From: a virus
Strand: one strand, 5' to 3'
DNA: 26,232 bases
IMG/VR virus record: IMGVR_UViG_3300050821_002772
Coordinates: 1 to 26,232 of that record
Made by a program: the position numbers and the translations under genes. Positions within the stretch are counted from its first letter, which is position 1. Every line of letters starts with the position of its first letter. Shown here one piece after another: positions 1,003 through 21,541 of this stretch. The notes under the pieces are model-generated. The model had not been told where the DNA came from. It did no database searches and saw nothing but the letters and a program-made list of their open reading frames with translations.

Positions 1003-1027
1003 ATGGAGGAGGGTCGTCTTCCTCCAT
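1003..1027. terminator. Hairpin between convergent genes
   Basis: ATGGAGGA at 1003-1010 pairs perfectly with TCCTCCAT at 1020-1027, and further G.U/G-C pairs close the loop around 1014-1016. It sits exactly between the rightward cluster ending at 998 and the leftward HNH gene ending at 1027. There is no clear T-run on either side, so termination would be weak or factor-dependent. Confidence 0.4.
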
Positions 1028-1464
1028 TAATCTACCATGCAATGCGGGTATTTATCAAATTCCTCTACATCAAACAAAATATTATTGTATTTTTGCAGGT
1101 TTTTCTTTTTTTCCAAATGCTGAAGATTCCATAATCTATGCTTTCCTCCACGTGATAAAGGTTTAATATGATCAACATGATGCGTTTCTGGACAATCTAA
1201 ATAAAATTTCTTTATTTCCTCGCGTTCTTGAAAACTAAGTCCATTTCTAGAATTTTCAAATCTGCTACTTCTTTCCGAATTGATCTGTTTTCTTATTTTT
1301 TTCCCTTTTTCTGTTTGCTCATATTTTTTACAATATTCTAGATGCTTTTTTTTATTTTTGATATAGTAAGCTTGTTGGCTTTTTTTATATGCATAAGGTA
1401 AATTATTTTTATAATTCTTATTTACATAAGCTACAAATTCATCTAATTCATCAAACCTATTCAT
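1027..1464 (-). CDS. HNH endonuclease, probably free-standing homing type
   Basis: A 145-aa protein. The C-terminal half carries a classical HNH fold signature: ETHHVDHIKPLSRGG (His95, His96, Asp98, His99), then KHRLWNLQHL with the middle Asn113, then KKNLQK (Asn122, Lys125). The N-terminal 75 residues are strongly basic and lysine/tyrosine-rich, probably a DNA-contacting region. HNH enzymes of this class nick or cut DNA with one metal ion. Isolated copies in phages usually act as homing endonucleases, though some assist terminase. It lies alone between the rightward small-gene cluster and the leftward adhesin operon, which fits a mobile insertion. No strong SD is seen at the ATG. Confidence 0.85.
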   Translation of the reverse strand: MNRFDELDEFVAYVNKNYKNNLPYAYKKSQQAYYIKNKKKHLEYCKKYEQTEKGKKIRKQINSERSSRFENSRNGLSFQEREEIKKFYLDCPETHHVDHIKPLSRGGKHRLWNLQHLEKKKNLQKYNNILFDVEEFDKYPHCMVD

Positions 1465-6761: not shown

Positions 6762-7151
6762 TTAAGATTTTTTTTCGTCCTTGAGGATTGATAATACCAA
6801 CGCCATGAAAGAAAACATATCGTAATGGTTGATTGGCTCAGTCATGGCATGTTTTGGCAAGTTTTCGATGTTCTTGAGCATCATTTCAAGTTCATCGAGT
6901 TTTTCCTTTTTGGAAAGAATCGGCGGTTCTTCACGTTCTATATCTATAGTTTCAGCTCCATTGATTTTGACGATGATCTCATTGCCCTCATCGTCAACTC
7001 TTAAGAAGTTCTCCCAATGTTTGGCTGAACATTCGAGCTTATCGTTGCCCCCAGAAATGCTTATCTCTCCACATTTGCAGATCACATAATCATAGGCATG
7101 GAAACTTTCAAGAGTGTCGCCACACAACTTGCATTTAGCTCTATTCTTCAT
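6762..7151 (-). CDS. Zinc-ribbon protein, MKNRAKC paralogue C
   Basis: A 129-aa protein. The first 40 residues hold CKLCGDTLES and VICKCGEISISGG, two CxxC/CxC knuckles that could bind one zinc ion. The pattern resembles short phage proteins of the DUF7695 type, an assignment from memory. The rest is an acidic region and a C-terminal helix (KKEKLDELEMMLKNIENLPK). The start MKNRAKCKLC is nearly identical at protein and DNA level to that of the next gene upstream. It overlaps that gene by 11 bases, with GGAG as SD inside it. It is the last gene of the leftward four-gene cluster. Function unknown. Confidence 0.75.
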   Translation of the reverse strand: MKNRAKCKLCGDTLESFHAYDYVICKCGEISISGGNDKLECSAKHWENFLRVDDEGNEIIVKINGAETIDIEREEPPILSKKEKLDELEMMLKNIENLPKHAMTEPINHYDMFSFMALVLSILKDEKKS

Positions 7152-7488
7152 TTTTTGCTCCGTTTATGAAATTAATAACGCTTTCAAACGTTCCAGCTGG
7201 AAGATTATTAATGTCTAAAAAGCGCTTAAGGCGACTAAAAACTTCATGGGTATCTGGATGTTTTGATATCCAATCTTCTTTAGGAGCTGGAATTTTTAAT
7301 CCTTTAAAATGATATTCCTCATCGTCATCATTAATGAAACAAAAATTATTCATGTTTTTATACATAACTCTTTTGCAATTTGGACCTCCATCTATAGAAA
7401 GAGACCCACACGAACATGTAACGAAATCATGGCCAAATTTGCTCTCAAGAATATCATTACAAAGTTTACATTTAGCTCGGTTTTTCAT
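7141..7488 (-). CDS. Zinc-ribbon protein, MKNRAKC paralogue B
   Basis: A 115-aa protein. I chose the ATG at 7488 rather than one 10 codons upstream. This start gives the same MKNRAKCKLC beginning as its paralogue and has GGAAAG just before it. Residues 1-40 carry CKLCNDILES, DFVTCSCGSLSIDGG and a further Cys, the probable zinc site. The remainder holds DDDEEYHF and a helical tail (FSRLKRFLDINNLPAGTFES). It overlaps both neighbours. The similarity to paralogue C extends over the first ~40 residues, so this looks like a local tandem duplication. Function unknown. Confidence 0.72.
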   Translation of the reverse strand: MKNRAKCKLCNDILESKFGHDFVTCSCGSLSIDGGPNCKRVMYKNMNNFCFINDDDEEYHFKGLKIPAPKEDWISKHPDTHEVFSRLKRFLDINNLPAGTFESVINFINGAKNEE

Positions 7489-7672
7489 CAGGTCTTTCCG
7501 GTCTATTCCAGCATTCAAAATAACAATTTATCACACCATTTTCATTATCTTCTGGCTTGCAATCGCCTTTTGATTCAAGCCATATGTTGCACTCCTTACA
7601 ATATTTAGCATCCCACTTATCGGAATATGAAGAAAAGCAATTACATATTGTACATTTAGCTCTATTTTTCAT
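7472..7672 (-). CDS. Short cysteine-rich protein, MKNRAKC paralogue A
   Basis: A 66-aa protein starting MKNRAKCTICNCF, the same first seven residues as the next two genes. It has further cysteines at KYCKECNIWLESKGDC and YFECWNR. The CxxC...CxxC layout suggests a small zinc ribbon. It is shorter than the other two and diverged after the shared start. Alternatively only the 5' end was copied. An SD (GGAG) lies 8 bases upstream, inside the preceding gene, and its 3' end overlaps paralogue B by 17 bases. Function unknown. Confidence 0.65.
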   Translation of the reverse strand: MKNRAKCTICNCFSSYSDKWDAKYCKECNIWLESKGDCKPEDNENGVINCYFECWNRPERPDEKPS

Positions 7673-9649: not shown

Positions 9650-9922
9650 ATGAAAAATCATCAACACTATTTTGGTATGAAATTTTATAAACGTCCAGAA
9701 GGTTATTGGTCGTGCACAAATAACGCAAGAATTTACGCTCATCGCTGGGTCTGGATGATGTTCTATGGCGAGATTCCAAAGGGCATGCAGATTCATCATA
9801 TAGATCAGAACAGATCGAATAATGAGGTCACAAATTTGCAGATGCTAGATAAGTCGACTCATATGAAGTATCATTGGAGGAGAAAAAGGTATAATCCGAA
9901 TCAGTTGTATTTTTCGTTTTAA
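9650..9922 (+). CDS. Small HNH endonuclease (HNH_3-like)
   Basis: A 90-aa protein. The core is typical of small phage HNH_3 enzymes: YAHRWVWMMFYGEIP (residues 29-43), then MQIHHIDQNRSNNEVTNLQ (46-64) with the His-His-Ile-Asp metal/catalytic site and conserved Asn residues. A basic tail YHWRRKRY follows. The family cuts or nicks DNA and commonly spreads as a homing gene. I prefer ATG 9650 over an in-frame GTG at 9644. No good SD is present. A TTGTTA/TATAAA pair at 9610-9639 (18-base spacing) might serve as a promoter, but the AT-rich context makes it weak evidence. It is inserted between the terminase and portal genes. Confidence 0.85.
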   Translation: MKNHQHYFGMKFYKRPEGYWSCTNNARIYAHRWVWMMFYGEIPKGMQIHHIDQNRSNNEVTNLQMLDKSTHMKYHWRRKRYNPNQLYFSF

Positions 9923-9990
9923 TTAATATTGAATGAATTAATTTCTTAATATCGATTTTATCGTAGCATTTATAGTATCATAATTCCATT

Positions 9991-10665
9991 ATGACTATAT
10001 GCACAACATGCAATGAGCAACCAGCAAGAGGGAAACTTGGCACTTGTAAGAAGTGTTATTACAAGGAATACCATTTAAAAACATACAAAAAGAAAGACGG
10101 TTCTTGCACTATTTGTGGGTCAAAAGAAGTTACATTAAGAGGCAAATACTGTGACACATGCCGAGAACAATTAGAAAGCCAATGTTGCGATTGTGGAAAA
10201 ATTTTTAAATATGGGGCTAAATACAAACGTTGTACAACTTGTCAATATCATTATTATAAAAATCATAGGCCCGAATTATTTAAAAACTTTTATGAAAAAC
10301 TAAAAATCTCCCAAAAAGAACGAAGACGAATAAAAAAAGGATTGCCTTTAGATCATGACTTTCACAAAGGGCCAAAAGGAGAAGGATATCTCAATAAAAA
10401 GGGATATGTCAGGATGGTCTTCAAACATGCCTCTGGAAAAGGATATGTGCGAATTTACCAGCATGTTTTGGTAATGCAAAAGTATCTAGGGCGCGAATTA
10501 CATGAAAACGAATCCGTTCATCATAAGAATGGAATTCGCAATGACAATCGAATAGAAAATCTTGAGCTTTGGAATAAAGGTCAACCAGCGGGCCAACGCG
10601 TTGAAGATAAGATTAATTGGTGTATTGAGTTTTTAAGACAGTACGGATATAAGGCGGATAAGTAG
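9991..10665 (+). CDS. HNH homing endonuclease with zinc-ribbon N-terminus
   Basis: A 224-aa protein. The N-terminal ~90 residues contain repeated cysteine knuckles (C4/C7, C19/C22, C39/C42, C54/C57, C65-C68, C81/C84), enough for up to three zinc ribbons that would read DNA. A basic linker KERRRIKKGLPLDH follows. The C-terminal nuclease has YQHVLVMQKYLGRELHENE, then SVHHKNGIRNDNRIENLELW with His177/His178 and conserved Asn residues. The last helix is GQRVEDKINWCIEFLRQYGY. The 13176-13712 protein is a clear paralogue. It ends 29 bases before the portal start codon, and the portal gene is itself interrupted by a group I intron without an ORF. This enzyme might therefore drive mobility of that intron or protect the site (inference). 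Confidence 0.9.
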   Translation: MTICTTCNEQPARGKLGTCKKCYYKEYHLKTYKKKDGSCTICGSKEVTLRGKYCDTCREQLESQCCDCGKIFKYGAKYKRCTTCQYHYYKNHRPELFKNFYEKLKISQKERRRIKKGLPLDHDFHKGPKGEGYLNKKGYVRMVFKHASGKGYVRIYQHVLVMQKYLGRELHENESVHHKNGIRNDNRIENLELWNKGQPAGQRVEDKINWCIEFLRQYGYKADK

Positions 10666-10694
10666 CAAATAAATTCTATAGTTTAGGAGGCTAA

Positions 10695-10762
10695 ATGGGT
10701 TTTTACTATCCGCCCTGGAATGCAGAAATTGAGCCGAACCAAGGGAATGTAAGATCGTGGCT
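10695..10762 (+). CDS. Portal protein, exon 1 (codons 1 to 22 plus 2 bases)
   Basis: The true start of the portal gene. AGGAGG lies 5 bases before ATG 10695. The exon encodes MGFYYPPWNAEIEPNQGNVR, then Ser-Trp and the first two bases of codon 23 (CT). Unspliced, reading on meets a stop at once (CTA TAA). The last seven bases, CGTGGCT, pair with GGCCACG at 10772-10778 to form intron helix P1. The final T pairs with G as a U.G wobble, the hallmark of a group I 5' splice site. After splicing the frame continues into the long ORF from about 11066. Without the exon, the downstream ORF lacks any SD of its own. Confidence rests on the P1 helix and frame agreement. Confidence 0.85.
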
Positions 10763-11065
10763 ATAAAGTCTGGCCACGTAATTTGATTGATATGAGACAA
10801 CCTATACTCGAAGTTCCAGCCAATCGAACAATCGAGATGGAATCAATCAAACATCGATTAAAAGTGAGTCGATGTTAAACCTTGGGTAATTGGCTTGGAA
10901 GCCCGACAGGGTGACAAGGGGCAAGCGAAAGCAGCCTGAACGACTAAATCCTAGGGCACCGAATGGTGATGCGATAGTCTGAACACGACGTATAGAAAGA
11001 AAGGTCGTGAGGGAGATTCGAAGAAGTTTCCCCGCCTAGTTAAATCTAGGTCATACAAGTAACAG
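10763..11065 (+). ncRNA. Group I self-splicing intron in the portal gene
   Basis: About 300 bases with no ORF. Helices drawn by eye: P1 (10756-10762 with 10772-10778, U.G at the splice site); P2 (10782-10791 with 10842-10851, 10 bp perfect); a hairpin 10851-10857/10869-10875; P3 (CCTTGGG 10880-10886 with CCTAGGG 10950-10956, two G.U pairs); P5-like (10894-10897/10915-10918 with inner CCC-GACA-GGG); P7 (GACTA 10942-10946 with TAGTC 10975-10979); P8 (CACC-GAAT-GGTG 10957-10968); P9 (CACGAC 10984-10989 with GTCGTG 11004-11009); and P9.2 (CCTAG 11035-11039 with CTAGG 11046-11050). The conserved R-like GAACGACTAAA and S-like GATAGTC sequences are present. The 3' end is uncertain: G11065 and G11059 both preserve the reading frame. 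No convincing P10 was found. Confidence 0.92.
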
Positions 11066-13073
11066 AATGACCCTCTTTTATGCAGGCGCACAGAACTTTG
11101 TAAACCGGTATTTTAATTTTAGCCCGACAACGAGCTACAACAACTACTATTTCAACCTGATCCAGCAGCCAGTTAATATGGTGACGGGATATCAGCGTCA
11201 ACATCGGAAGAACTTTAGCTATGTTCCATCTGAAGGATCAGACGCGCAAACGACCGATCAATATACGCGCCTCATTACTCACATAGCCAATACGAATCAA
11301 ATTCATGAGCAATTCTCTCGCGCATGTGAGCAATCTGCTATCACAGGAATGGTTTTGCTTCAACCCTACTTGGATTTTACCGGAGACGATCCAGCACAGG
11401 GTGAATTAAAGCTAAAGTTATGGGAATACAACTCGTTTTTGTGCGACCCCTATGCCAGGTCATTAACCTTTGAAGACTCACAATTCATCTGGTGTCAAGA
11501 ATATATTTCAAAGCAAGAGGCCGAAGAAAGATTCCCTGGCAAGAAAACTCAAATAATGCCGATGTCTGGCACGCCTCAGCGGTATGGCAATTTCTATTTC
11601 CTTCCTGAAAACTACAACATGGCCCGCAATGATCTAATGGTGCTTAGCTATGTCTGGTATAAATGGAAGCGCAAAAAGAAACGCCTTTATTCCGAAAAAC
11701 GAAATCAATTCTTTGACTTTGCTGGCGGCGACGGTCAAATGGACGCTCTGATCCAAAACATCCCCGATCTTCAGGAAGTAACCGTAGATGTTCCTACATG
11801 GAAGCTAGCTGTTGTTCTAAATGATCAATTGATGTACCAGGGGGATAACCCACTTAAAACAGATGCTTGCCCTTTTGTCCCAGTTCTTTGGAATTACGAG
11901 CCGCATATTAACTATTACGATCTACGTGTGCGAGGCCTTATTCGTACTATGCGTGATCCTCAGTTCTTATTTAATTACAAAGTTATTCAGAACAATGACA
12001 TCGCTGCTGCGACGATTAACGCGGGGTGGAAGCGCAAAGTAGGAGCTGTCGCAAATGAAGACAATCTTAAGAAATCTGGTCAAGGCTGGGATGTCATTAT
12101 TAATGACGGCTATGAGATGACAGATGTCGATAAGATCATTCCTTCTGCCGTCCCTGAATCTGATCTTGCATTGGCTCAGCAAATGGCCGATCTGATCTAC
12201 AACACGTCTGGCATTAACCTTGAGAATTGGTCCGGACAGCAAGACAAGCAGGTATCAAGCTTAACTGTACTATTGAAACAAGCCGCTAATTTAATGGTAT
12301 TCCAGAAGTATTTCGATCAATGGGATTTATCTCTAAAAACACTTGGTAAGAGTCTTATTGACATTGTTCTAAATAATTGGAGCGCGGAAAAGGTATCCAT
12401 GCTCATTAACGAAGAGCCTAGCCCGTATTTCTATTCCAAGGTATTTGCTAAGTATGACTGCATCGTGGAAGAAAGCGATCTGACCCCAACTCAGCAAAGT
12501 CTTCAAGCACAGCAAATGATGGAAATGAACGAACGCTTTGGCAGGGAAATATTCTCCCCAAGTCAAATTATTCCAAAAATGAACATTACCGGTAAGGCAG
12601 AGGTCATTAAAATTTTACAACAACAAGAACAACAGGCACAGGCGGCGCAAGAACACGCAATGCACTTAACCCACGCTATTGAAGAAGCTAAGTTAAAAGA
12701 GTTGTATGCGAAGAGTGCGCTTGCTATTGCTAACGCGAGAGAAAGACATGGCAGGGCAGAAAGCAATATTGGTTTATTCGAAGAACGTTTAAGTATGATA
12801 GGCCGTAATAACGCAATGTCTAATAAGGCTAAAATGGAAGCTCTCGAAAAACTTGTCGACGTAACACACAGATATGGAGAACTAGAAGCTCACCTTAAAA
12901 TGAATGAGATAGACTCTATAGATACGCAAGAACAGACAAAAGAAGATATTGCAAAACAAGATGCAAAAAGAACAAGCCTTTCAAATGATTTTGTTGCCCA
13001 AATGCTTTCAGGAATGGGACAAAATCAAGAAGAAATGCAACAAGAACAAGGCGGACAAGAACAGGGAATGTAA
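11066..13073 (+). CDS. Portal protein, exon 2 (P22-like)
   Basis: Encodes the remaining ~668 residues, for a spliced total of about 691-693 aa, near the 725 aa of P22 gp1. The portal is the 12-subunit ring at the packaging vertex that binds terminase and later the tail adaptor. Visible features are: an N-terminal stretch MTLFYAGAQNFVNRYFNF with YYFNLIQQPVNMVTGYQRQ; a wing/stem region with SFLCDPYARSLTFEDSQFIW, a phrase typical of P22-type portals; a segment VRGLIRTMRDPQFLFNYKV; and a C-terminal glutamine/alanine-rich coiled coil (EQQAQAAQEHAMHL onward) like the helical barrel of P22 portals. The chain ends in a Gln/Gly-rich tail. It is the only long rightward ORF between two paralogous HNH genes. 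The exon start is 11066 or 11060 depending on the 3' splice site. Confidence 0.9.
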
Positions 13074-13086
13074 ATATACTATATTG

Positions 13087-13152
13087 AACATGTCTAGAGC
13101 GACGGCTCGAAAAGCTAATTTCCGATTGGCCTGACATGTTTTTTCAATCGGA
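13087..13152 (+). ncRNA. Interlocking stems after portal: terminator or pseudoknot
   Basis: Stem A pairs AACATGTC (13087-13094) with GACATGTT (13133-13140), followed by a T-run (13139-13144). It encloses a small hairpin GAGC-GACG-GCTC (13097-13108). Stem B pairs TCCGATTG (13121-13128) with CAATCGGA (13145-13152). The 5' arm of B lies in A's loop, and the 3' arm of A lies in B's loop. The two must therefore form a pseudoknot or exclude one another, as in a terminator/antiterminator. It sits just before an HNH gene. Confidence 0.5.
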
Positions 13153-13175
13153 TTAACTGCGGAGGTTATTATTCA

Positions 13176-13712
13176 ATGAATAAAACTATTAAAACTCACA
13201 AATCTTGTATAACATGCGGAAAGCACGATTACAGATATTCTAGAAATATGTGCATGTTGTGTTATTCTCGTGCTTATAAAAAAGAAAATCCAGAAAAGGA
13301 AGCAAAAAGAGCAGCCAAACATCATAGAAGAAGATGGGAAGAAAGAAGAATAAAAAGAGGACTTCCATTAGATCATATTATTATGAAATTATACATAATC
13401 CAAAATGGATACAAACTTCTTTGGATTCCAAACCATCCAAATTCGAAAAAACTTGGTTATATCCAAGAACATCGCCTTGTAATGAGTAATTATCTTAAAA
13501 GGCCACTTTCTAAATATGAAACAGTGCACCATAAAAATGGGGATACTTTAGATAATCGCATAGAAAATCTTGAATTATGGTCATCTCGTCACCCAAAAGG
13601 CCAAAGAGTGGAAGATAAAATTTCCTGGGCTAAAGAATTCTTGAATGAATATGGATACGATGTTATTCAAAGAATAGAAACCAATAAAGAACCAGAAGGT
13701 TCTAGGGAGTAA
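13176..13712 (+). CDS. HNH homing endonuclease, paralogue of 9991-10665
   Basis: A 178-aa protein. It has one N-terminal zinc ribbon (C11/C14 and C26/C29), where the upstream paralogue has several, then a strongly basic helix (KRAAKHHRRRWEERRIKRGL). The HNH_3-type nuclease shows YIQEHRLVMSNYLKRPLSKYE, then TVHHKNGDTLDNRIENLELW (His118/His119), and KGQRVEDKISWAKEFLNEYGY. The last ~80 residues closely follow the 9991-10665 protein, so the two share recent ancestry. An SD (GGAGG) lies about 11 bases upstream. It follows the portal stop by 100 bases of structured RNA and sits before small phage genes, as expected for a free-standing homing gene inserted at a gene boundary. Confidence 0.9.
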   Translation: MNKTIKTHKSCITCGKHDYRYSRNMCMLCYSRAYKKENPEKEAKRAAKHHRRRWEERRIKRGLPLDHIIMKLYIIQNGYKLLWIPNHPNSKKLGYIQEHRLVMSNYLKRPLSKYETVHHKNGDTLDNRIENLELWSSRHPKGQRVEDKISWAKEFLNEYGYDVIQRIETNKEPEGSRE

Positions 13713-13715
13713 ATT

Positions 13716-13931
13716 ATGGCAGGCGGCCAAAAAATTAATGATATGGGCGGATGGCCCCATACCTCAGACATGGCAATGAAGTCTAAAAACAAGCTGAAAG
13801 AATACCATTCGGCTGAAGGTGCAGGTGCAGAAAATGAGTATGAAGATACTGATGCTGCGATAAAAGGTATGCAAGATAAGAATACCTCTAAAGCTAAAGC
13901 GCACAGCACTAAATCAGGCTATAGAAACTAA
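13716..13931 (+). CDS. Hypothetical hydrophilic protein, 71 aa
   Basis: Starts MAGGQKINDMGGWPHTSDMA, followed by a charged KSKNKLKEYHSAEGAG region and an acidic ENEYEDTDAA stretch. The basic, probably disordered tail ends KAHSTKSGYRN. An AGGGAG SD lies 7 bases before the ATG, inside the end of the HNH gene. The composition (few hydrophobics, mixed charge) suggests an intrinsically disordered or small accessory head protein. It is placed between the portal and scaffold genes, but no family is recognised. The start is secure. Confidence 0.65.
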   Translation: MAGGQKINDMGGWPHTSDMAMKSKNKLKEYHSAEGAGAENEYEDTDAAIKGMQDKNTSKAKAHSTKSGYRN

Positions 13932-13932
13932 A

Positions 13933-13998
13933 CCTTTGGAAGCGCTTCGTGCTAGCATACGAGAATCAAAATTGATCCGGCGCTTCCACTTTTAAAGG
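13933..13998 (+). promoter_or_regulatory. Branched RNA leader with SD pairing
   Basis: TGGAAGCGC (13937-13945) pairs perfectly with GCGCTTCCA (13980-13988). Inside are two small hairpins: TCGT/ACGA around 13947-13962, containing the palindrome TGCTAGCA, and ATCA/TGAT around 13965-13976. This gives a three-way junction. In addition CCTTT (13933-13937) can pair with AAAGG (13994-13998), which is part of the SD of the gene at 14005. A structured, possibly regulatory, 5' leader is likely; no known class is recognised. Confidence 0.5.
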
Positions 13999-14004
13999 AG
14001 CATT

Positions 14005-14268
14005 ATGAAATCAGGTTTCAAAGACCCAATCGCAATCAAAGAAGGCAAGAAGATTAAGTCTCCTTGGAATTTTGACGCGCCCGAATACGATGAAAGATCA
14101 AGTTGCTATGTCAACGCTGGTTCTCATTACGGCGTAGGTCATAGACAGCCAGTAGGACATGAAGGCAATCCTAAAATGGATGCCCCAACGCTTCCTAGAG
14201 GCCGTGTCAATGCAATGGAAGTAGATGAAGTGCCTCACAAAAACCTAATGATAGAGCTAGAAGAATGA
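14005..14268 (+). CDS. Hypothetical protein, 87 aa
   Basis: Begins MKSGFKDPIAIKEGKKIKSP, followed by WNFDAPEYDERSSCYVNAGSHYGVGHRQPVGHEG and ends EVPHKNLMIELEE. The middle is rich in Gly, His, Pro and Tyr with little predicted helix, and looks extended or partly disordered. AAAGGAG precedes the ATG with good spacing but is partly paired in the leader structure at 13933-13998. The stop overlaps the next start by 4 bases (ATGA), so the two are probably coupled. Lying among head-assembly genes suggests a minor virion or assembly role, but the family is not recognised. Confidence 0.65.
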   Translation: MKSGFKDPIAIKEGKKIKSPWNFDAPEYDERSSCYVNAGSHYGVGHRQPVGHEGNPKMDAPTLPRGRVNAMEVDEVPHKNLMIELEE

Positions 14269-14429
14269 ATTTAGCCGTTCAAAGCACTAAATCCGCTGTT
14301 TGTCCAGAGTGTGACGAAGTATTTCGCTTTTTAGAAGCATCTGCTTGCTTGTCGCATGCTTGCCCTCATTGCAGACGAAGAATAGTCATTGAGGAGGCTG
14401 CCAATGAAGAAGAGCAAGAGCCAGCATAA
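14265..14429 (+). CDS. Small zinc-ribbon protein, 54 aa
   Basis: The ATG overlaps the preceding stop. The protein has a clean four-cysteine zinc ribbon, CPEC (residues 13-16) and CPHC (33-36) with 16 residues between them. A basic patch RRRIVI and an acidic tail (EEAANEEEQEPA) follow. Zinc ribbons of this size bind nucleic acid or act as small protein adaptors, and the partner is unknown. It overlaps the next gene (14404) in another frame, and its end carries that gene's SD (GAGGAGG). It joins several other small Cys-knuckle proteins in this phage. Confidence 0.65.
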   Translation: MNLAVQSTKSAVCPECDEVFRFLEASACLSHACPHCRRRIVIEEAANEEEQEPA

Positions 14430-14583
14430 AGAAACCCATTCAATGAATGAAAAGTTTGGGATGGGGACTTTTAATGGACGCGCTCTTCCTGCAAAGATTG
14501 GCAAGGTTCGCCAAATGTATGCTCCTGGGGAGAATCCTGCTCCTCCTGAGAAGTTAAAGCGGCCTCCGAAGACTCTTGCTTAG
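14404..14583 (+). CDS. Hypothetical basic protein, 59 aa
   Basis: I chose ATG 14404, which has GAGGAGG ideally spaced upstream, over an in-frame ATG at 14389. It encodes MKKSKSQHKETHSMNEKFGM followed by RALPAKIGKVRQMYAPGENP and a Pro/Lys tail. It is basic and probably disordered, with no recognised family. Its 3' part (14471-14583) is antisense to the end of a leftward gene, a long convergent overlap, so one of the two 3' ends may be less conserved. It is part of the coupled run starting at 14005. Confidence 0.5.
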   Translation: MKKSKSQHKETHSMNEKFGMGTFNGRALPAKIGKVRQMYAPGENPAPPEKLKRPPKTLA

Positions 14584-14875
14584 CATATTTCCTCATCGCT
14601 TCTAAAGCACGCGCGCGCTCTTTTGGGTCGTTTAATTTTTCAGAATCTTCATTCAGATGTGTAAATTCAGGAAGAATTCCTCCTTCCAATTTTCCTACTT
14701 TAAAGTCAGTTTTCGTTTTGAAATAAGGATATTCCCCCTTTGCTGGGAACGCTTTTCGATACCGCTCAGGGACTTCACCCAAATGAAATTCGATAAACCA
14801 ATAAAGTCTTTGTAGCTGTTCTTCTAAATCATCTAATTTATCTACAATCTTGTCATTAAACTGGTTTGAAGCCAT
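14471..14875 (-). CDS. Hypothetical protein with helical N-terminus, 134 aa
   Basis: Starts MASNQFNDKIVDKLDDLEEQ with an AGGGA SD 5 bases upstream. The first ~30 residues are an amphipathic helix/coiled coil. They are followed by FIEFHLGEVPERYRKAFPAKGEYPYF and TDFKVGKLEGG. The C-terminal ~50 residues are charged and Ser/Gln/Glu-rich, and they overlap the rightward gene at 14404 on the other strand. It overlaps the upstream gene by 20 bases. Lying near portal and scaffold genes suggests a small assembly or virion protein, but I do not recognise it. Confidence 0.6.
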   Translation of the reverse strand: MASNQFNDKIVDKLDDLEEQLQRLYWFIEFHLGEVPERYRKAFPAKGEYPYFKTKTDFKVGKLEGGILPEFTHLNEDSEKLNDPKERARALEAMRKYAKQESSEAALTSQEEQDSPQEHTFGEPCQSLQEERVH

Positions 14876-15380
14876 CTTTTCCCTTTACCGCTCTACTTAT
14901 TTCCTTGTAAACGCGATCCATAGCCTCTTCGGTAAGATCGTCCTCTTCTTTAGCTTCTAGCTGTTCTCGGTTGTGTTCGAATTCGTAGATACTTTGCACG
15001 ATCGTTTCGTTTTCTGTCATCTTGCCTTTTTGGTATTGCTCCCACATTTCACGAGGAGGAATGATCCAAATGACTTTGATGTTGTCTGAGCCAGGATAAG
15101 CCTTGAAAAGCATTGAATTCGTCTGAGCTTTTGGCTTTGTGAGTCTTGGCTGCCAGATGATGGTTTTTTCAGGAACTCTATCGAAAGAGAAGTATTTTCC
15201 GCTTGCATAAAGCTTAAGTTTTTCATCCAGACCAAGCGTACGAGCATGAGCAAATATGTAGAAAGCATTGTCTCCAAAAGGTCTTTGGTCGATTAAGTTT
15301 TGGCAGCAAGCGCCGATGTCGAAGTCTTGTTTCTGGAAGAATGAATAGCGGTCGTGTACGTCAGTTCTTGTTACTTTCAT
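14856..15380 (-). CDS. Conserved-looking phage protein, 174 aa
   Basis: I start at ATG 15380, giving MKVTRTDVHDRYSFFQKQDF. An in-frame ATG five codons upstream exists. The chain has well-mixed globular composition with the segments FGDNAFYIFAHARTLGLDE, PEKTIIWQPRLTKPKAQTNS and KVIWIIPPREMWEQYQKGKM, and ends in an acidic helical tail. The YIFAHARTLG and IWQPRLTKP phrases seem familiar from uncharacterised proteins next to P22-like portals, but I cannot attach a function. It overlaps both neighbours by 20 bases in a three-gene leftward cluster, so it is probably translated by coupling. Confidence 0.75.
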   Translation of the reverse strand: MKVTRTDVHDRYSFFQKQDFDIGACCQNLIDQRPFGDNAFYIFAHARTLGLDEKLKLYASGKYFSFDRVPEKTIIWQPRLTKPKAQTNSMLFKAYPGSDNIKVIWIIPPREMWEQYQKGKMTENETIVQSIYEFEHNREQLEAKEEDDLTEEAMDRVYKEISRAVKGKDGFKPV

Positions 15381-15624
15381 AAGCTGTTTTTGCATCTTCG
15401 ATTATTTTTTCTGGGAATGTTTTAATCATTTCTGAAGACGGCGTATATTTAAATACACACCATAAATAAGCGGCTTTTTTAGTGTTGTTTTCTTTTTCTA
15501 ACGAACATAGATACCTATCTCTCCACATATCTACTTCTCTTGAAGTATAAAAAATAGCCCTTTCACATTCGGAAAGAATTTTTCTCAAATCTTCTAAGTG
15601 CTGAAATGCTTCTGGCAGTTCCAC
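15361..15624 (-). CDS. Hypothetical protein, 87 aa
   Basis: Starts with GTG at 15624, preceded by AAAGAGGG with 6-base spacing. It reads VELPEAFQHLEDLRKILSEC then ERAIFYTSREVDMWRDRYLC, and ends FPEKIIEDAKTAYESNKN. It is helical and charged, with cysteines and aromatic residues typical of a small soluble phage protein. No family is recognised. It is the first gene of the leftward cluster and diverges from the scaffold-like gene at 15702, leaving 77 bases for promoters. I see no clear consensus promoter there. Confidence 0.65.
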   Translation of the reverse strand: MELPEAFQHLEDLRKILSECERAIFYTSREVDMWRDRYLCSLEKENNTKKAAYLWCVFKYTPSSEMIKTFPEKIIEDAKTAYESNKN

Positions 15625-15701
15625 CTCTTGCCCTCTTTAAATATTTGTGTTACATAACGATAAAACCAACCGCGTGTCGGCGTCAAGACAAAAGGAGTCA
15701 C

Positions 15702-16391
15702 ATGTCTGTAGATACTCAAAACAATCAACCGCAGGAACAAAAAAATGACACGATTGAGATCAATCTTGCAAAACAGCGTAAGATGTATGAGAGACAATTG
15801 GAACAAGAGCGAATCGCTAGGCAACAGGCCGAAGATAGAGCAGCTGCTGCTGAAAGAATTGCACAAGAGAAATCAAGATCTCATTCCAATGATGAAGACG
15901 ATCAAGAAGATGACGAGCCATATGTTGACCGAAGAAAGCTCAACAAAGAACTGAATAAGTTCAAAACAAACATCGAACAGACCATTGATCAAAAAGCAGA
16001 AGCAAAAGCAGCTGCGATGATCGAGAACGAGCGAAGAGAGGGATATTTGCGCGAGAATTCAGACTTCAATCAAGTCATGAATGAAGAGACGATTGAGAAG
16101 TTTGCAGCAAAGTACCCAGGATTGGCTAAAGGGATATTGCGCATGCCAGATGGCTTTGAAAGACAGAAGCTCGTTTATGAGAACATAAAAGCCCTTGGCG
16201 TTGATAAGCCTGAAACAAAGCAATCTTCGATACAAGAAAAGATCGATGCAAATAAAAGAAGCCCCTATTATCAGCCTTCAGGCGTTGGATCGGCTCCTTA
16301 TGCAAATCAAAGCGATTTCAGCCCTGCTGGTCAAAAGGCTGCACATGATAAAATGCAACAATTAAAATCAAGATTACGTCTTAACGGATAA
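15702..16391 (+). CDS. Probable scaffolding (head assembly) protein
   Basis: A 229-aa protein whose start is fixed by AAAGGAG 5 bases before ATG 15702. The N-terminus is polar (MSVDTQNNQPQEQKND). Residues ~22-58 form an Arg/Glu/Ala coiled coil, and residues ~62-73 are almost all Asp/Glu. A helical region follows (RRKLNKELNKFKTN), then a small domain with NSDFNQVMNEETIEKFAAKYPGL. A basic C-terminal helix (KAAHDKMQQLKSRLRLNG) ends the chain. Acidic coiled-coil protein with a basic C-terminal helix is the plan of phage scaffolding proteins, whose C-terminus binds the coat protein. No major capsid gene follows, which is unusual. A strong terminator comes next. Confidence 0.65.
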   Translation: MSVDTQNNQPQEQKNDTIEINLAKQRKMYERQLEQERIARQQAEDRAAAAERIAQEKSRSHSNDEDDQEDDEPYVDRRKLNKELNKFKTNIEQTIDQKAEAKAAAMIENERREGYLRENSDFNQVMNEETIEKFAAKYPGLAKGILRMPDGFERQKLVYENIKALGVDKPETKQSSIQEKIDANKRSPYYQPSGVGSAPYANQSDFSPAGQKAAHDKMQQLKSRLRLNG

Positions 16392-16401
16392 TCAAAATGA
16401 T

Positions 16402-16426
16402 AGGGGGATAAAAATCCCCCTTTTTT
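16402..16426 (+). terminator. Strong rho-independent terminator
   Basis: GGGGGAT (16403-16409) pairs with ATCCCCC (16414-16420) around a four-base A loop and is followed by TTTTTT (16421-16426). It sits 10 bases after the scaffold-like stop codon and separates that gene from the small-gene operon that follows. Confidence 0.9.
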
Positions 16427-16430
16427 CTTC

Positions 16431-16458
16431 TTGCCTTATTTCTGCGTTCAGTTATAAT
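16431..16458 (+). promoter_or_regulatory. Sigma70-like promoter
   Basis: TTGCCT (16431-16436) and a perfect TATAAT (16453-16458) with a 16-base spacer lie just after the terminator and 19 bases before the ATG at 16478. The position between a terminator and a small-gene operon supports it. The host sigma factor is inferred. Confidence 0.65.
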
Positions 16459-16477
16459 AGCAGAAAGAGGGTACAAC

Positions 16478-16663
16478 ATGAAGACAACATTAATGGTCGA
16501 GCCACCTGTAAAATGCGATCTCTGCAAATGCAGCGAATCCAAATACGACGCTAAAACAAAAATGGGATACTGGGCTTATATGTGCAAGCCATGCTATAAA
16601 TACTACGGAATCGGCACGGGATTAGGAAAAGGACAGCAATTGATTAAAGCAAAGGAGGAATAA
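16478..16663 (+). CDS. Small zinc-ribbon protein, 61 aa
   Basis: The first gene after the promoter at 16431-16458, with GAGGG about 6 bases before the ATG. It contains CDLCKC (residues 13-18) and CKPCYKYYG further on, a four-cysteine zinc site spaced by about 20 residues that include MGYWAYM. Short proteins with this arrangement are frequent in phage genomes and are thought to bind nucleic acid or host factors, but no role is established here. The following gene starts right after its stop, so they are in one operon. Confidence 0.7.
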   Translation: MKTTLMVEPPVKCDLCKCSESKYDAKTKMGYWAYMCKPCYKYYGIGTGLGKGQQLIKAKEE

Positions 16664-16664
16664 G

Positions 16665-16880
16665 ATGATTTGGGCTGAAATCATAACAGGATTAACCGTT
16701 GTAGGATTTGTTTACACGTTTTTGAGAAACTTCAAAGATGATATTACTAACCAAATTTCTAGGGTTGAAAAGCGATTAGATGACCAAGATGATAGAATAT
16801 TTTGGCTTTTGACAGGCAAACGGCTTCAGGACGCTATTTTAGAAGAAAAAATGAAAAAACAAGAAAAAAAGGCGGAATAA
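16665..16880 (+). CDS. Small membrane protein with coiled coil, 71 aa
   Basis: An SD (AGGAGG) lies within the end of the preceding gene. Residues ~3-22 are one hydrophobic helix (WAEIITGLTVVGFVYTFL). A charged amphipathic helix follows (NQISRVEKRLDDQDDRIFWL) and a lysine-rich C-terminus. This anchor-plus-coil form resembles that of the 238-492 protein. It could be a small lysis accessory or a membrane-tethering protein, and no family is recognised. It is co-transcribed with its neighbours, with gaps of one base on each side. Confidence 0.65.
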   Translation: MIWAEIITGLTVVGFVYTFLRNFKDDITNQISRVEKRLDDQDDRIFWLLTGKRLQDAILEEKMKKQEKKAE

Positions 16881-16881
16881 T

Positions 16882-17124
16882 ATGGCCGTAACGCCCCAAT
16901 GTGGATGTAAAGATGGATGTCCAAGATACACAAACTATTTTGTACCAATTAAATTGGATAAAGAATTTATAAAGACACCTATGATAACTGGAAAACCAGG
17001 ACAAATACTTTCAACCGATATTGATGAAAACGGAAAAACAATTATGGTTTGGAGAGATTTAACCGCAGAAGAAAAGAAAATACAAGAAGAAATAGAAAAA
17101 AATCAGTCTAATAATTGGGAGTAA
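16882..17124 (+). CDS. Hypothetical protein, 80 aa
   Basis: Starts MAVTPQCGCKDGCPRYTNYF. The N-terminal CGCKDGC cluster could bind metal or form disulfides. A probably beta-rich middle follows (FIKTPMITGKPGQILSTDID, KTIMVWRDLTAEE), then an acidic/lysine-rich helical end. It begins one base after the previous stop, inside the operon driven from 16431-16458. No family is recognised and no function is assigned. Confidence 0.6.
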   Translation: MAVTPQCGCKDGCPRYTNYFVPIKLDKEFIKTPMITGKPGQILSTDIDENGKTIMVWRDLTAEEKKIQEEIEKNQSNNWE

Positions 17125-17131
17125 AAATAAT

Positions 17132-17200
17132 ATGAGTTTCTTTCATGGTATATTATTTGCAGTAGTTTACTTTTTCGTTGTATGGAGTTATAGTAAATAA
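17132..17200 (+). CDS. Possible 22-aa membrane micropeptide
   Basis: ATG 17132 has GGGAG about 9 bases upstream. The peptide runs MSFFHGILFAVVYFFVVWSY and ends Ser-Lys, so it is essentially one transmembrane helix. It ends at 17200, exactly abutting the stop of the leftward 915-aa gene, and uses the full space between them. The SD, its operon position and pure membrane composition support it, but its length makes it uncertain. Confidence 0.4.
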   Translation: MSFFHGILFAVVYFFVVWSYSK

Positions 17201-21271: not shown

Positions 21272-21541
21272 ATGACTAAAATCAAAGCCGTCTCTAAACG
21301 ACTAATTGTTAAACAAGTTGCAGATGACAAATCAGAAGAGAAAAAGGGCATTATCATCCCAGGAGATGACCGCAAGCCTTTTAAAGCCCAAATCATCGCA
21401 GTCGGGGTTGAGGTAGACTGCCATGTAAATGCTGGCGAATATGTGCTTTTGCCGTTTATGACTGGGACTCCTATAGAGATTGACGGCCAGAAGTTTTTGG
21501 TTATCTTCGAAGATCAGATTTTGGCTGTGATAGATAAGTGA
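21272..21541 (+). CDS. groES: GroES-like co-chaperonin
   Basis: An 89-aa protein close to the 97 aa of bacterial GroES. It begins KAVSKRLIVKQVADD, matching the usual 'PL.DRV(I/L)VK' strand. A mobile loop with GIIIPG at residues 26-31, equivalent to the GGIVLxG chaperonin-contact loop, follows. Next come FKAQIIAVG, the turn NAGEYVLLP in place of VGDxVxF, and the closing strands KFLVIFEDQILAVID. The roof-loop region is shortened. GroES caps the GroEL cage during folding; phage versions such as T4 gp31 adapt host GroEL for capsid protein folding. It lies alone with one small gene between two leftward virion operons. The SD is weak (TAGGG). Confidence 0.9.
   Translation: MTKIKAVSKRLIVKQVADDKSEEKKGIIIPGDDRKPFKAQIIAVGVEVDCHVNAGEYVLLPFMTGTPIEIDGQKFLVIFEDQILAVIDK

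Follow-up and report, generated by a model that had tools for sequence, protein, structure and literature searches.

Collaborative homing, in which a free-standing endonuclease acts with an intron that has no open reading frame (ORF), is a known arrangement (PMC3984707; PMC2988022), and one suggestion for the gene 60 insert is that it represents a degenerate group I intron (PMC5009743). The window analysed here is the whole 26,232-nucleotide (nt) stretch of viral DNA in IMG/VR record IMGVR_UViG_3300050821_002772 (positions 1 to 26,232). Its portal gene, close to three HNH genes, carries an ORF-less group I intron of 211 nt, which we call F, and upstream of F a 32-nt mini-intron without a catalytic core, which we call M. 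An earlier note on this DNA rightly described an intron without an endonuclease of its own and proposed collaborative homing by its HNH neighbours; it overlooked M, and nothing else at the locus is as unusual. We think it fairly likely that M belongs to a class of satellite group I introns: core-less elements of about 30-60 nt, reduced to P1, P10 and a terminal G, that rely for splicing on the ribozyme core of the intron that follows and that homing endonucleases spread among portal and capsid genes in several lineages of phage. The relatives compared throughout are metagenome contigs, with portal and capsid loci among the matches listed.

Two insertions in the portal gene

The window portal is of the P22 type and lies between the two larger HNH genes; all features given below are on the plus strand unless marked (-). 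Exon 1 (10695..10762), which reads MGFYYPPWNAEIEPNQGNVRSW followed by CT, was placed by homology to uninterrupted portals and by the spliced ORF. It is followed by M (10763..10794), by a 64-nt exon 2 (10795..10858; LDNLYSKFQPIEQSRWNQSNID with flanking bases) that is 95% identical to one uninterrupted portal, by F (10859..11069), and by exon 3 (11070..13073), which carries the portal family match (PF16510, E 1.4e-57). Exact removal of both insertions (32 + 211 nt) yields a single portal ORF of 711 residues with one terminal stop and a predicted junction peptide of NVRSWLDNLYSK. The conserved N-terminal run SFYYPPWNNALEPNQGNVRQWLDNLYSKFQPIEQSRWNQSNIDTLFYAG, continuous in the uninterrupted portals of viral contigs, is split over 10695-10762, 10795-10858 and 11070 onward.

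M carries group I splice signals. In the window, exon bases 10756-10762 pair with 10772-10778 to form P1, with a U.G pair at the 5' site; positions 10768-10771 pair with exon bases 10795-10798 to form P10, and the last base is G. Among 16 M inserts in portals, P1 spans 7-11 base pairs (bp), the exon-final U lies opposite G and the terminal base is G in 16/16, an adjacent P10 of at least 3 bp is present in 15/16, and each insert fits the splice-signal pattern better than 99.5% of shuffles. The pairing is specific to the flanking exons: over 32 distinct portal and capsid M, 99% of P1 positions and 98% of P10 positions pair with the insert's own exons, and when exons are swapped between sites these values fall to 49% and 37%, respectively. 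Every P1 position bar the fixed U.G shows at least two Watson-Crick types in this set.

M measures 29-55 nt in portals, at sites a, b, c and d, and 29-66 nt over all distinct cases, which leaves no room for P3-P8. We do not file M as a group I intron proper because it lacks a catalytic core of its own. Its lengths are not restricted to multiples of three, so M must be removed; stops in its first codons are frequent. The motif TTGAT is enriched in M tails (13/45, against 2 expected) and resembles the ATTGACTTGGA segment of F, a hint that M may have arisen by deletion from full introns.

F has the core that M lacks. In the window, its predicted structure places the P1 guide strand at 10868-10876, P3 at 10880-10886/10950-10956, P7 at 10942-10946/10975-10979 and P8 at 10957-10960/10965-10968. 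When 14 homologous full introns are aligned, they support P3, P4, P6, P7 and P8 together with the P3/P7 pseudoknot: across the 24 core pairs, 99.4% of cells are paired and 14 pairs have changed on both sides. This score was reached by 0/500 shuffles, and shifted registers gave at most 47%. In 17/17 portal F introns the exon-final U pairs with a guide G and the intron ends in G. We accordingly read F, from its sequence and that of its homologues, as an ordinary and presumably self-splicing group I intron.

The two insertions are tightly linked. Full introns occur at five sites (c, d, e, f and g) in 15 of 144 distinct portal 5' regions, and one or two M (16 in total) were found in 14 of these 15 and in none of the 129 portals without F (p = 1.5e-18). 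Spliced alignment of 112 loci also revealed about 30 short inserts with the M signature in major capsid genes, from the same phages as the portal M and from more distant ones. Many of the capsid loci were fetched by the F core motif; for M-F linkage, an unbiased test therefore comes from the portals only. Order is equally strict: F is the next insertion in 16/16 cases for the portal M, and after every capsid M whose downstream sequence can be read. Two apparent exceptions (L049 and L248) have the core motif downstream, a third (L149) runs into the contig edge, and in L217 the aligner cut one full intron in two, which gave an apparent M-M succession. Because M precedes F in about 15 different M-site/F-site pairs, the order is not one inherited arrangement.

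HNH genes and the proposed spread of the insertions

As the earlier note had it, three HNH ORFs lie at this locus, and all match HNH_3 (PF13392) above the Pfam gathering score of 24.8 bits: a small gene of 90 residues (9650..9922, 67.1 bits), a free-standing zinc-ribbon gene upstream of the portal (9991..10665, 40.2 bits), which is the candidate homing endonuclease for the portal insertions, and a second zinc-ribbon gene downstream (13176..13712, 32.3 bits). The two larger proteins that flank the portal are indeed paralogues, with N-terminal Cys pairs and 45% identity over 160 residues.

The survey of intron and HNH co-occurrence that the earlier note had suggested is a clear comparative test of the collaborative-homing model. 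Using a hidden Markov model built from the window HNH proteins, we found an HNH gene directly upstream of 12/15 portals with F, of 7/8 portals with a hairpin (H) insert instead (L020, L023, L042, L058, L083, L121, L153 and L178), and of 11/97 uninterrupted portals; together, 19/23 interrupted versus 11/97 uninterrupted portals have one (Fisher p = 5e-11). On the portal tree, F status requires 12 changes for 15 tips and H inserts 8 for 8; the association has therefore arisen repeatedly and does not trace to one inherited event. Such scatter would be expected of mobile elements.

The three HNH genes differ in this respect. Members of the 9991-10665 clade precede interrupted portals only (the window, L010, L023, L030, L042, L045, L058, L083, L121, L153 and L168). 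Relatives of the small gene at 9650 also precede uninterrupted portals (L002, L003, L006, L008 and L026), and an HNH gene lies downstream of 1/16 interrupted versus 6/74 uninterrupted portals (p = 1). Portals with H inserts and portals with M and F are mixed within the 9991-10665 clade, which suggests that one endonuclease target region may be protected by different inserts.

An ORF-less intron and a co-occurring free-standing endonuclease gene, the pair by which collaborative homing is recognized, are both present. The model proposed in the earlier note is borne out in part: co-occurrence argues for 9991-10665, with cleavage as its predicted activity, and not for 9650-9922 or 13176-13712. The 9991-10665 protein would cut uninterrupted portal alleles in the M/F region, and repair of the cut allele would copy the interrupted region, so that M and F would spread together. 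The HNH genes could instead be free-standing endonucleases of the ordinary kind that sit in a hot spot and are unrelated to the introns, as their presence at 11/97 uninterrupted portals, some belonging to the small 9650-9922 family, might suggest. We consider this rather unlikely in view of the skew toward interrupted portals, the repeated, independent placement of insertions on the portal tree, and the restriction of the zinc-ribbon clade to interrupted portals.

Several observations concern other HNH genes and their surroundings. An int-alpA RNA (RF02996; 47.4 bits, gathering 35.8) lies at 13087..13152, 23 nt before the start codon of the downstream HNH gene. Four further matches occur in relatives (L016 4004-4068, L030 3378-3440, L171 5411-5475 (-) and L177 2114-2183), and all five directly precede the start of a free-standing HNH-type gene adjoining the portal, which suggests that int-alpA may be part of a mobile endonuclease cassette. 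The HNH gene upstream of the L173 and L177 portals is degenerate, its zinc ribbon fused directly to the C-terminal tail, and reads as an endonuclease decaying beside intact introns. A fourth HNH gene in the window (1027-1464 (-), PF01844) has a position unrelated to the portal.

Probable removal of the mini-intron

The portal transcript would have to lose both M and F. The simplest reading, and the one we find most likely, is that the F core docks the P1 helix of M, excises M in cis, and then excises itself. M would supply only the substrate half of the reaction: a P1 with its U.G pair, a P10 that positions the 3' exon, and the last G. This would account for the constant position of M upstream of F, and the order rule follows if the action is in cis: an M on the far side of F would be left behind after F was excised. 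Taken as a whole, the account in which M is removed by the F core in cis and both insertions spread with the upstream zinc-ribbon HNH gene is, in our assessment, likely to be correct.

Alternatively, M could be removed in trans, either by F once it has been excised and is free or by another group I RNA, since an excised group I core, free of its own 5' exon, could dock another P1. However, action in trans has no need of the strict order of M upstream of F with short exons between them, and we regard it as unlikely. We also rejected exon skipping from the 5' site of M to the 3' site of F, since the phases match in only 2/7 site pairs.

Translational bypass, in which the ribosome would pass over an unspliced M, is more doubtful still. 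It has a precedent in a short bypass insert (PMC5009743), and M, at 29-66 nt, forms hairpins, frequently has an early stop, and lies near an HNH gene. However, matched codons flank 0/16 portal M, and bypass requires no P10 with the 3' exon, terminal G, boundary U.G or downstream group I intron, all of which are near-universal in M. The H inserts in the portal 5' regions of the eight relatives named above fit bypass better than M does. They are 47-54 nt long and form a covarying stem of 17-18 bp (-33 to -37 kcal/mol). Their flanking codons are CGG to CGN in 7/8 and identical in 1/8, all eight contain an in-frame stop (in 5/8 as the second codon after take-off), and no full intron is present in these portals. 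Searching by pattern for hairpin inserts brought up mainly unrelated loci. We propose the H inserts as candidate ribosomal bypass elements. Finally, the window is a 26-kb metagenome contig in which no capsid gene is recognizable, and the portal might be taken for a pseudogene or an assembly artefact, which is highly implausible given that portals and capsids from many separate metagenomes repeat this insertion anatomy, that exons stay intact, and that P1 and P10 covary with exon changes.

Several results count against excision by F and spread by the HNH gene. L130 has F without M, so M is dispensable for F. The boundaries of the capsid M were optimized over a few nt for P1 and P10, and their null p is mostly <=0.007; five short capsid inserts (L222, L243, L282, L300 and L333) have no P1 signature and are either unexplained or alignment errors. 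Rfam was scanned at gathering and at relaxed thresholds and then replaced by covariation on homologues. The group I model RF00028 had no match in the window even at E 5, and none in 14 relatives; because the Rfam models miss F, we assign it by covariation and topology. Several F introns have a short P10 or none. No HNH gene was recognized upstream of 4/23 interrupted portals, although at least one F locus scored as negative, L171, has an upstream translation that reads as an HNH-like gene of another type, and HNH clades do not map strictly one to one onto insertion sites. Lastly, we could find no precedent for core-less introns, so that removal of M by F is inferred. Our search of the open-access full-text literature turned up no account of group I mini-introns that lack a core, which is weak evidence of novelty.

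A nucleotide search of annotated phages returned no relative, and a protein search returned portals at 22% identity only and no match for the capsid, which leaves no cultured phage for comparison. In relatives, a capsid gene lies downstream of the portal; in the window, a comparison of 13716-17200 with the capsid protein of the relatives reveals no recognizable homologue, and the gene is possibly lost, divergent or absent from the assembly. Two contigs binned as Parachlamydia and Chlamydiia (L329 and L343) have an F-type intron core, and spliced alignments of L343 (closely) and L329 (weakly) match the relatives' capsid protein; this binning is a weak lead to the host. Elsewhere in the window, three adjoining small ORFs (6762-7672 (-)) share an MKNRAKC...C N-terminus and are tandem paralogues of a Cys-rich protein, and a GroES-like co-chaperonin is found at 21272-21541 (phrog_3188, E 3.4e-13).

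Comparison with known systems

F resembles the described phage group I introns (T4 td, nrdB and nrdD; Bastillevirinae, PMC11878797) in P3, P4, P6, P7 and P8, in the U.G of P1 and in its terminal G. M shares with them P1, P10 and the terminal G; unlike them, it has no P3-P8 core, and an intron with such a core follows directly downstream. Removal of M by the F core would mean that group I introns in nature have non-autonomous satellites, that two introns are spliced by one ribozyme, and that such satellites form a categorically new intron class. As in collaborative homing (PMC3984707), an ORF-less group I intron stands beside a free-standing HNH gene and the two co-occur repeatedly. In contrast to that system, three HNH genes are present here, of which the upstream zinc-ribbon gene alone fits, the intron is an M and F pair, and cleavage of the insertion site is a prediction. 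M shares with the 50-nt bypass insert of T4 mobA/gene 60 (PMC5009743) its small size, its lack of coding sequence and its place in a phage gene close to a gene for a homing endonuclease. The nearer analogue of the gene 60 insert is the H insert of the relatives, not M.

The group III introns of Euglena chloroplasts are degenerate introns that have lost catalytic domains and need factors in trans. M is similarly degenerate, lacking catalytic domains and apparently dependent. Unlike M, group III introns derive from group II introns and have no obligate neighbouring core-bearing intron. If our reading of M is correct, the satellite introns would be the group I counterpart of the presumed path by which dependent introns arose from group II introns.
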